From an uncultured Bacilli bacterium (lineage in GTDB: Bacteria > Bacillota_I > Bacilli_A > RF39 > UBA660), in NCBI GenBank assembly GCA_944329425.1, contig CALVIG010000001.1, positions 160,015 to 224,014 of the forward strand: a stretch of 64,000 nt of DNA. Direction: 5' to 3'. Made by a program: the position numbers and the translations under genes. The notes beneath the pieces are model-generated. The model ran no database searches. It was not told the origin of the DNA and worked only from the letters and a program-made list of their open reading frames with translations. Below are positions 662-51,921 of this stretch, piece after piece; the stretch's first letter is position 1; each line of letters starts with the position of its first letter.

Positions 662-2566
<1,905 letters not shown>

Positions 2567-46054: not shown

Positions 46055-46083
46055 AAAAAAGAACCCGGCAAGGGTCTTTTAAA
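46055..46083 (-). terminator. Terminator of the third TasA-like gene
   Basis: An AAGACCC/GGGTTCTT stem with a one-base bulge and a 5-base loop is followed on the minus strand by T9. Confidence 0.65.
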
Positions 46084-46088
46084 TTTTA

Positions 46089-46709
46089 TTAATTTGCGGA
46101 TTGTTCAAAGCCTAACGTCATGTTATATTGCATAGTTGCTTGCCCATTTGATAACTCAGGTTGTGATTCTAAACCTAGCATATCTGAATCCATCCACATG
46201 TTATAGATATAAAAATCTACAGATTCTCCAGTTTGTAAAGTTACAGTTGCTTCTTCTAATGCTCCATCACCGTTAGCGGAAATTAATTCATTATTTTTAC
46301 GAACTTCGTAATATCCAAATAATGCAGTTGTTTTATCTAAATAAAATACGTCACCTACATCAGTCATATTTGAAGCTACATTATTTGATGAATCAACCGT
46401 CTTTAATACTGCTGGTATTGATCCGTTATTTGTTACCGTTACCTTGAAAATTGAAAAATCAGTTGGCTTAGATAGTTTACTAGTTGTTGTTATTTCATTA
46501 CCTTCAACTTGGCATGAACCCGTTCCAGTTGATGCTGATGTTTCTTGGTCTTCTCCCCAACTAATATCTTCATCAACAAACTCACATGCATAACTTAAAT
46601 TAAAATCTCCTTGAGCGGTTGCCGTTCCACTTATGGTTAACGTATCTGAAAATATTGCATATCCTACCGCTACTACAAGTATTAGAGCTATTACTCCTAT
46701 TATTATCAT
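46089..46709 (-). CDS. TasA/camelysin-like secreted protein, out of frame at a poly-A tract
   Basis: A 206-residue open frame starting at an internal ATG. It has the hydrophobic GVIALILVVAVGYAIFSDTL shared with two paralogs in this window and a beta-rich Asn/Thr/Gly-rich body, the pattern of SipW-processed TasA/CalY-like proteins, ending with a conserved SDMLGLESQP segment. The expected start is the ATG at 46723, which has AAGGAT 7 bases upstream, but the tract ATG-A10-C-ATG is one A short: paralogs read MKKKNMII there, while here translation ends after four codons. An A11 variant would restore the full 5' end. See findings. Confidence 0.72.
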   Translation of the reverse strand: MIIIGVIALILVVAVGYAIFSDTLTISGTATAQGDFNLSYACEFVDEDISWGEDQETSASTGTGSCQVEGNEITTTSKLSKPTDFSIFKVTVTNNGSIPAVLKTVDSSNNVASNMTDVGDVFYLDKTTALFGYYEVRKNNELISANGDGALEEATVTLQTGESVDFYIYNMWMDSDMLGLESQPELSNGQATMQYNMTLGFEQSAN

Positions 46710-46792
46710 GTTTTTTTTTTCATCTTTTTTATCCTTACTCCTTTTAAAATATTAAAGTATAATCTTTTTATTATTTGTTTACCTAACAAAAA

Positions 46793-47497
46793 TTAGTTAT
46801 TAGTTACTTGACTAAAAGTAAATTCACTCGTCATTGTTTGCTTAAATAAAACTTTGTTTGAACCCTCAATGGTTTCACCCAAATTACCCCAATGAGTGTT
46901 TGAAACTAAAAATATACTTTCTCCTGCATCAAGAACAATATTTTCCATTTTTTCATCAAAAAATTGAAGTACATCATCAAGACTACTCTCGTTAGCTATT
47001 ACAACAGTACCATCTTCTTTTTCGAAACCAACCAACTTGTTATATAACATATTTTCTTCTGGTTCTACAATATTAGAATCGCAATCAGTAAAATCATTAG
47101 TATCGTAATTACCAACACATGATTCAATGGTAACTTGGCTTCCAGTTGTCAAATTAAGTTGTGCTGGTATGCTACCAGTATTAGTTATTTTTATGGTAAA
47201 ATTTCTCGTTGCACCTGGTTGTAGTAATTTTGCACTATAAGTAACCTTATTATCATTTGCAGTACAACTATCACCACTATAATTGTTATCAGCATCTATT
47301 GGTTCTGAATGTATTAAATTAGCATTTAAAAATCCTTCATTAGTGATTCCTGGCGTGCATGTTGTCGTTATGCTAAAATCTCCTTTCGCAGTTGCACTTC
47401 CGTTTATCGTTAATGTATCAGAAAATAATGCATATCCTACCGCTACTACTAATATTAGTGCTATTACTCCTATTATTATCATGTTTTTCTTTTTCAT
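46793..47497 (-). CDS. TasA/camelysin-like secreted protein
   Basis: About 234 residues. N-terminus MKKKNMIIIGVIALILVVAV, then ALFSDTLTINGSATAKGDF, a SipW-type signal peptide in which cleavage is expected near the SDTLT region. The body is acidic and beta-rich, with a CTPG / CTAND / ESCVGNYDTNDFTDCD Cys pattern. TasA/CalY relatives form extracellular fibres or surface layers in other Bacilli. GGAGG lies 10 bases before the ATG. A 90-bp upstream region is nearly the same as that of the 50394-50999 gene. SipW itself is not in the window. Confidence 0.78.
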   Translation of the reverse strand: MKKKNMIIIGVIALILVVAVGYALFSDTLTINGSATAKGDFSITTTCTPGITNEGFLNANLIHSEPIDADNNYSGDSCTANDNKVTYSAKLLQPGATRNFTIKITNTGSIPAQLNLTTGSQVTIESCVGNYDTNDFTDCDSNIVEPEENMLYNKLVGFEKEDGTVVIANESSLDDVLQFFDEKMENIVLDAGESIFLVSNTHWGNLGETIEGSNKVLFKQTMTSEFTFSQVTNN

Positions 47498-50393: not shown

Positions 50394-50999
50394 CTAGTTT
50401 TGTGCTTGTTGAAATTTAAATGTTAAATTATATGTTAAAGGTTTTCCTTCTACAGGCAATTGTGGTTGTGATTCTAAACCTAACATATCAGAATCAACCC
50501 AACCATGTACAACGGTTATGTCAATTTCCTCGCCTGGTTGAAGGGTAATGTTAGCATTTGACACCTCACTATCACCCGTTTTTCCAGTTTCTTCTCCTTC
50601 TTCGGTAACACCATAATAAGCAGCCAAACTATAATCAGTATCTACATAAGAAGCATCTCCTTCAGTTTTAAAATCCATACCCTTATTGTTAGGAGATGTT
50701 ACTTCTTTAAGAACTGCAGGAATCGATCCATCATTTGTTACCGTAACATGAAATAAAACGGCTTCATTTGGTTTTAAAAATGAACTTTTCATTTCAATAT
50801 TGCTTCCATCAACTTTACATTTTGCAGATTCTTTGTTAGCGCTTGATTCATCAATTTCACAAGAATAACTCAAACTAAAATCTCCTTGAGCCGTTGCACT
50901 TCCGTTTATGGTTAACGTATCTGAAAATATTGCGTATCCTACCGCTACTACTAATATTAGAGCTACTACACCTATTATTACCATGTTTTTCTTTTTCAT
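50394..50999 (-). CDS. TasA/camelysin-like secreted protein
   Basis: About 201 residues with the same N-terminus (MKKKNMVIIGVVALILVVAV then FSDTLTINGSATAQGDFSLSY) and the same C-terminal DSDMLGLESQPQL segment as the 46089 paralog; the body again has two Cys pairs (CEID, CKVD). The start is the MKKKN ATG, with GGAG about 11 bases upstream. Its 90-bp upstream region matches that of the 46793-47497 gene closely, suggesting shared control. Surface fibre or matrix role is inferred from the family. Confidence 0.78.
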   Translation of the reverse strand: MKKKNMVIIGVVALILVVAVGYAIFSDTLTINGSATAQGDFSLSYSCEIDESSANKESAKCKVDGSNIEMKSSFLKPNEAVLFHVTVTNDGSIPAVLKEVTSPNNKGMDFKTEGDASYVDTDYSLAAYYGVTEEGEETGKTGDSEVSNANITLQPGEEIDITVVHGWVDSDMLGLESQPQLPVEGKPLTYNLTFKFQQAQN

Positions 51000-51110: not shown

Positions 51111-51737
51111 TCATAAATGTTTTGATCCATCTTCTTTCACATCAACTTTAACCAACGCATTCTTAAAAAGCATCTGTAGCAAACTAGGATATAAATACTT
51201 ATCTTTTACCGCCATCAAAAATTCATCTGGATTTATCTTTGTAAAATCTAGTTCAACGTTAAAAGGCAATTGCTCTTTTTTAGAAAGAACAAACTCTCTT
51301 AAAAATTCTCTTACACTACGACCATTTCCTTCTCTAAACGGATGAATAACCATAAGTTCATAATATTCTTCCGCTAAAAAATACGAATATCCATCTATAC
51401 TCAAAATATTTTTTACTTCTTTATTCATTTTATCAAGCTCATTTTTTAACCTTACTTCTATTTCATCAGGATTTACGAATTCCCTAAATCTGGCCATTTC
51501 ACATTTGCGATATTCTCCGGCAAAATAATAAATATCATTAAATAAAAAATAATGTATTTTTCTTAAATGATCACTATCAAATTTACCTTCTATGGGAAAC
51601 ATTTCTAAGTAAGCTAATTTTTTTAACGTTATTATCTTTTCATTTTTTGATAATTCTTCTTTATTTGTTATTCCAAGTTTATTTTTTAGTACGTTTGTAC
51701 CTTCTATAAAATACTCATCCCACGTATCATTACTCAT
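51111..51737 (-). CDS. Fic/DOC family AMP-transferase toxin
   Basis: A 208-residue Fic protein. The catalytic loop HPFREGNGR lies at residues 132-140, with the active His132, and is complete; the flap and substrate region precede it (FAGEYRKCEMARFREFV). Fic enzymes move AMP from ATP onto target proteins, for example gyrase subunits in VbhT/FicT systems. It overlaps the small upstream gene by 8 bases, the usual arrangement for a class I Fic with a separate antitoxin. It ends with TGA. Confidence 0.92.
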   Translation of the reverse strand: MSNDTWDEYFIEGTNVLKNKLGITNKEELSKNEKIITLKKLAYLEMFPIEGKFDSDHLRKIHYFLFNDIYYFAGEYRKCEMARFREFVNPDEIEVRLKNELDKMNKEVKNILSIDGYSYFLAEEYYELMVIHPFREGNGRSVREFLREFVLSKKEQLPFNVELDFTKINPDEFLMAVKDKYLYPSLLQMLFKNALVKVDVKEDGSKHL

Positions 51738-51921
51738 GTTTATTTTCCTTTCGCTTTAAAAGTAAAATCTTAGGATTTTTCATAAAACACTGTTTTATGC
51801 TTTCTCTTTCTTCTTCACTTATAATTATCCCATCAATTGCAAAGCTTGCAACCGCATCATTTACGGCCTTTTCAACCAATTTCTCATATTCTTTATTTTT
51901 TTCATCATCAACGTAACGCAT
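51730..51921 (-). CDS. VbhA-like antitoxin of the Fic protein
   Basis: A 63-residue helical protein. SFAIDGIIISEEE at residues 26-38 matches the antitoxin pattern that carries the inhibitory [S/T]xxxE[G/N] motif of class I Fic modules, but here the key Glu is Asp (S26-F-A-I-D30-G31). In VbhA the Glu blocks ATP in the Fic active site. Position directly upstream with 8 bases overlap supports the assignment. Confidence 0.83.
   Translation of the reverse strand: MRYVDDEKNKEYEKLVEKAVNDAVASFAIDGIIISEEERESIKQCFMKNPKILLLKRKENKHE

Follow-up and report, generated by a model that had tools for sequence, protein, structure and literature searches.

The window, by which we mean the whole stretch of 64,000 nucleotides that was analysed from a small gut-type bacterium, carries on its minus strand two intact members of a putative surface-protein gene family and, directly downstream of one of them, a copy whose start is broken (Table 1). 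Elsewhere in the window, the large serine recombinase gene and the small ORFs that follow it are possibly an integrated element, and a 63-codon ORF just upstream of the Fic-type gene may encode its antitoxin.

Table 1. Features of the window, in window positions
Feature	Position	Strand	Remarks
Expected start ATG	46721..46723	-	Homologous to the start of the MKKKN-type paralogs; opens the five-codon ORF 46706-46723
A10 tract	46711..46720	-	T10 on the plus strand; same place is A5-G-A5-C in paralogs
ATGA	46706..46709	-	Overlap of the five-codon ORF's stop (TGA) with the following ATG, itself in the body frame
Out-of-frame body	46089..46709	-	206 codons; predicted to comprise a helical hydrophobic signal core (residues 3-21) and a beta-sandwich domain
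Terminator-like hairpin with T tract	46062..46076	-	Downstream of the body
GTAAACAAAT, possible box remnant	46773..46782	-	49 bases before ATG 46723, without the rest of the box
Intact paralog directly upstream	46793..47497	-	Start ATG 47497, MKKKNMIIIGV...
Second intact paralog	50394..50999	-	Start 50999, MKKKNMVIIGV...
Box GTAAAYAAATGTAAA	47566-47580	-	
Box GTAAAYAAATGTAAA	51068-51082	-	
Fic-type adenylyltransferase gene	51111-51921	-	VbhT/Fic models, below cut-off; adjoins the paralog at 50394
Large serine recombinase gene	680-2566	+	CcrB-related (staphylococcal cassettes) by NCBIfam, below cut-off, E 4.6e-44; two small unnamed ORFs follow

On the minus strand the expected start codon (46723-46721) is followed by ten A residues (46720-46711), a single C (46710) and a second ATG (46709-46707), and the sequence-only reading was right to place the body of the gene off-frame: the ORF 46089-46709 is open over 206 codons in a frame other than that of the ATG at 46723. 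Translation from that ATG gives M-K-K-K-T before the TGA at 46708-46706, which is five codons and not the four previously counted. The window paralogs starting at 47497 and 50999 both read ATG-AAAAAGAAAAAC, and an A5-G-A5-C start is present in 6/6 MKKKN-type copies of this genome (L002-L007, both window paralogs included). The broken copy is one base short of its paralogs, as had been claimed, but this is not a bare change of run length, the interrupting G being lost too. The ribosome-binding site, previously called good, is better described as fair, with AGGA 8 nt and GGAG 14 nt before the ATG compared with AGGAGG or AGGAG about 10 nt before the ATG of the window paralogs. Frame is set by homopolymer length in the 5' coding part, as in phase-variable genes, and the run, with its one-base frame difference, reaches the length of about 9 or more given for transcriptional slippage in the available part of PMC1088944; the A10 start also contains a -1 slippery heptamer, A-AAA-AAA, in phase. 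The earlier description of the tract as slippery can be upheld.

The 206-residue ORF, modelled from a 14-sequence alignment (mean pLDDT 86.6, pTM 0.78), is predicted to form an N-terminal helix (3-21) followed by a mostly beta domain. The top Foldseek match is the TasA fibre 8aur_A (E 1.4e-3, prob 0.87), weak at a TM of 0.29, and the next is the type 1 pilus complex chain 9fy9_F; VIA matches all fall below Z 8, with pilins among them, and TasA is not among the 50 listed, which does not speak against it. No Pfam family was found for the protein, sequence-profile searches of Pfam, NCBIfam and PDB yielded no usable name (best PDB E 0.5), and Pfam M73 (PF12389) has no match in this genome, the Bacillus subtilis control matching. 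The label 'TasA-like' is thus a weak one, favoured by the top Foldseek match but not by any M73 match. The TIGR04088 signal-peptide profile scores 16.6 bits for the neighbouring paralog against a cut-off of 19, and matches 4 of 12 family members at E values up to 1 (best 0.01), all 12 entries starting after the n-region. A SipW-type signal peptidase scores over the TIGR02228 cut-off at C8:25198-25560, and its gene sits between the family members at C8:24606 and C8:27229 (region C8:24606-27525; L008, L009), an arrangement that recalls the tapA-sipW-tasA operon of Bacillus. As far as this evidence goes, the family would consist of secreted surface proteins with a beta-sandwich and a SipW-type layout, probably with a surface or matrix function.

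The assembly has 1,114,951 bases in 18 contigs and is 95.8% complete. Nine places in it match the protein, the frameshifted copy included, and family matches occur in 25 of the 59 genomes searched (this genome and relatives), with many genus genomes holding multiple copies, up to 17. We examined the starts at all 86 places with E <= 7.4e-10, 26 from search loci and 60 from short stretches, all of them in this genome or its genus. An in-frame start is present in 85 (82 ATG, 3 GTG), followed by 2-6 Lys or Arg before the hydrophobic core, and a Shine-Dalgarno-like motif precedes 84 of these 85 in a scan for which GGA or AGG suffices. The sole exception is the frameshifted copy, which has no in-frame upstream start and the longest A/T run near the start (10, compared with a maximum of 8 elsewhere, reached in 6 of the 85). 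By this comparison the poly-A start is not a trait of the family, because all other starts are in frame and the frameshifted copy alone combines a lost frame with the longest run. A family-wide poly-A switch can be rejected on the same counts, which likewise give no support to phase variation as an evolved trait; the sequence-only reading had proposed looking for the tract in related genomes, and it is not kept there. No other start among the 86 is shifted, and we found no frameshift kept between lineages. A start-pattern scan of the genus matched this genome alone, at five places, four of them with the interrupted start, and a scan for copies or strains gave no hits among genome contigs or viral contigs, from which records near this genome were possibly left out. 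Stops or fragments are also seen in other family members of the genus, for example G016:C18, G012:C1:67781 and G015:C5.

The body of the gene is a mosaic. It is 95% identical to a paralog elsewhere in the genome (L002, C2:27133-27747), with which it shares one stretch of 299 identical bases, and 23 of 206 codons differ, 11 synonymously and 12 not, the last being the stop codon of that paralog. Codons 2-17 equal those of L002 and the differing codons of 18-25 equal those of L004; codons 18, 19, 22, 25, 33 and 34 match the window paralog 50394..50999, unlike L002. This mosaic identity suggests gene conversion among the surface-protein paralogs, although a chimeric assembly could also produce it; our literature search found no papers on poly-A phase variation of Mycoplasma lipoproteins or on gene conversion in such genomes. 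It had been argued that the rest of the gene is intact, and 46089-46709 is indeed open, but this says little about long maintenance because so much of the sequence was recently shared with L002. The body appears to have been renewed not long ago, and that no further damage is visible in it argues weakly for maintenance of the gene.

The region upstream of the broken start also sets it apart. Exact copies of the box GTAAAYAAATGTAAA number four in the genome and precede the paralogs L003, L004, L005 and L006, one apiece, and a one-mismatch version lies upstream of L002; two further one-mismatch places occur in the genome, and the reversed-pattern control gives three. Among the six closest copies in this genome the frameshifted one alone lacks the shared box, and its GTAAACAAAT stands at a spacing unlike that of the box in the paralogs. 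A TGTGYTAAAATACAT block is conserved nearer the start than the box in five close paralogs, and together the two are a candidate site for a common regulator or promoter. The 5' flank of the frameshifted copy differs from those of the paralogs in several places, much of it aligning poorly. We saw no terminator on this strand in the 69-base gap between the stop codon of the upstream paralog (46793..47497) and the ATG at 46723, and therefore read-through into 46723 is possible. A promoter scan of the region gave 10 matches compared with 10.3 in shuffled sequences, and thus no excess.

A10 at a start is unusual. Exact A10 occurs six times in the assembly and exact A9 43 times, with no longer runs, and none of the six A10 runs lies inside an ORF of at least 60 codons. 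Runs of A11 or longer are present in 6 of the 18 genus genomes (eight matches, two of them overlapping), and ATG-A10 at five places in 3 of the 18. Two further ATG-A10 places in this genome were looked at and set aside. The DUF402 gene C1:53735-54278 (L044, L143, L147) lies outside the window and opens with ATG-A10. Relative to 3/3 genus relatives that have the gene, its register shifts by one base some tens of bases past the tract; the A10 itself (L044/L147) keeps the frame, with the break downstream of it, so that this place, considered as a possible second slippery start, lends no support to a common A10 rule, and the break probably reflects either a pseudogene or an assembly error. A third ATG-A10 place (L047/L151) is flanked by plus-strand ORFs, no long minus-strand ORF runs from its ATG, and it looks intergenic.

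Our preferred interpretation, which we hold tentatively and regard as close to evenly balanced, is a real and recent frame loss that silences one duplicate in a recombining family of beta-sandwich surface proteins that carry signal peptides and are present in multiple copies. It brings together features observed directly in the DNA (a lost frame shared by no other family start examined, the absent upstream box and the mosaic body) with the proposal that the organism really carries this allele, that it arose recently and that the copy is dispensable; it rests on one assembled genome and on the tract length as assembled. A chance origin of the pattern seems improbable from the 85 of 86 homologous starts in frame and the mere six exact A10 runs, with none longer, in the assembly. 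The conserved A5-G-A5-C start would have lost its interrupting G and ended one base short, creating the uninterrupted A10. Ribosomes from the proper ATG would then stop after MKKKT, leaving the charged n-region unlinked from the hydrophobic core, and a product begun at the next ATG, without the positively charged n-region of the other 85 starts, would be poorly exported. The copy is probably off or nearly off because of this early stop and the poor export of the alternative product, although slippage on A10 may yield a low level of in-frame protein. By analogy, the tract may be physically prone to length change and to transcriptional slip whether or not this is selected, and leaky expression or reversion, as in Listeria inlA, is plausible. 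Loss of one copy is likely to be tolerable because the genome has nine. Some of the same observations can be read differently: the lack of decay past the start also fits a reversible or rescued gene, and the missing box could mean reliance on the promoter of the upstream gene and not death of the copy.

An unlikely but serious alternative is a consensus or assembly error in this metagenome-type assembly, with the gene in frame in the organism. Long A runs are a common site of consensus errors, the assembly is in 18 contigs and not quite complete, near-identical paralogs complicate assembly, and the DUF402 gene is likewise one base off at an A-rich 5' end relative to its relatives. Against an error, the change relative to the paralogs is not one of run length alone, the interrupting G being gone too, and the 5' untranslated flank also departs from those of the paralogs. 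Of the 28 distinct A9 runs assessed (among the 43), 13 lie inside open ORFs, and none of five overlapping pairs of neighbouring ORFs in the window proved to be a gene split across two frames.

Also improbable, in our judgement, is that the copy is the reversible OFF state of a contingency gene, in which replication slippage shifts the length of the A tract and expression flips between cells. The tract does directly follow the start codon of a surface-protein gene, and Listeria monocytogenes inlA provides a precedent of the same form: the available text of PMC2831843 describes 5' alleles with A2GA4 (in frame and stable), A7 (in frame) and A6 (a stop after 8 amino acids), with reversion from A6 to A7 at about 5.5e-7, deletions in A2GA4 below about 3e-10, and length change commoner once the interrupting G has been lost. 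Poly-A phase variants are also known in the wbeL and manA genes of Vibrio cholerae, according to the portion of PMC3441752 at hand. Against this, the other 85 starts are all in frame with A/T runs of at most 8, the interrupted form is retained in all six close copies of this genome, ATG-A10 is scarce in the genus, and a single allele is present in the one genome.

Rescue during decoding, from unchanged DNA, we likewise consider doubtful; it could come about by transcriptional slippage on A10, by -1 frameshifting at A-AAA-AAA, or by reinitiation at the ATGA overlap, a possible termination-reinitiation site. Transcriptional slippage is plausible by analogy with the systems described in the available parts of PMC1088944 and PMC3017870, the latter reporting frameshifted poly-A genes of Buchnera and Blochmannia that are rescued in this way. 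Long A/T runs are also rarer in the window than under a dinucleotide Markov model (mean of 20 simulations), with 17 observed compared with 29 at length 8, 1 with 12.6 at length 9, 1 with 5.0 at length 10, and 0 with about 3 at lengths of at least 11. This scarcity fits slipperiness in this organism, as where runs slip in the excerpted account of PMC1088944, but it is explicable by DNA slippage or mutation alone. We found no stimulatory RNA structure for frameshifting at A10 (z 0.31), a reinitiated product would lack the charged n-region, and there is no sign of selection on the gene in its present state. Least probable is that the A10 copy of this recombining family is kept for a purpose, either as a contingency variant switched by its start or as an untranslated donor whose body feeds the expressed copies through gene conversion, a silent store while the surface of the family changes.

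Silencing of a duplicate is the interpretation we prefer, and the finding is an ordinary one unless two tract lengths turn up in sequencing reads. A real and switchable allele would make this an inlA-type contingency surface gene in a lineage seen mainly through assembled genomes, and would hint that the surface family diversifies by exchange between its copies. Should the copy instead be a dead duplicate, or the frameshift a consensus error, the case serves as a caution that single-base frame losses at poly-A starts in assemblies are weak evidence for phase variation.

Three known systems bear comparison with these observations. The family resembles the SipW-dependent matrix proteins TasA and CalY of Bacillus in its Lys-rich n-region, hydrophobic core and beta-sandwich, and in the SipW-like peptidase gene near two of its members, but differs in having no Pfam M73 match in this genome, TIGR04088 scores under the cut-off and only a weak fold match to the TasA fibre. 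The broken copy resembles those of Buchnera and Blochmannia in combining a small AT-rich genome, a single-base shift in a long A run and an otherwise open gene. In those genomes, however, long in-gene runs are abundant (114-153 runs of 9 or more per genome in Blochmannia) and some poly-A frameshifts are conserved across populations or species, as given in the available part of PMC3017870, whereas in the present genome such runs are few and a single instance of the shift is seen. For Listeria inlA there are population data and a measured reversion, and the interrupted and broken forms are alleles, whereas here there is one assembly with a run of 10 and the two forms are paralogs; the two cases share a surface-protein gene, a G-interrupted run in most relatives, and a broken form that is uninterrupted, one base short and stopped early.
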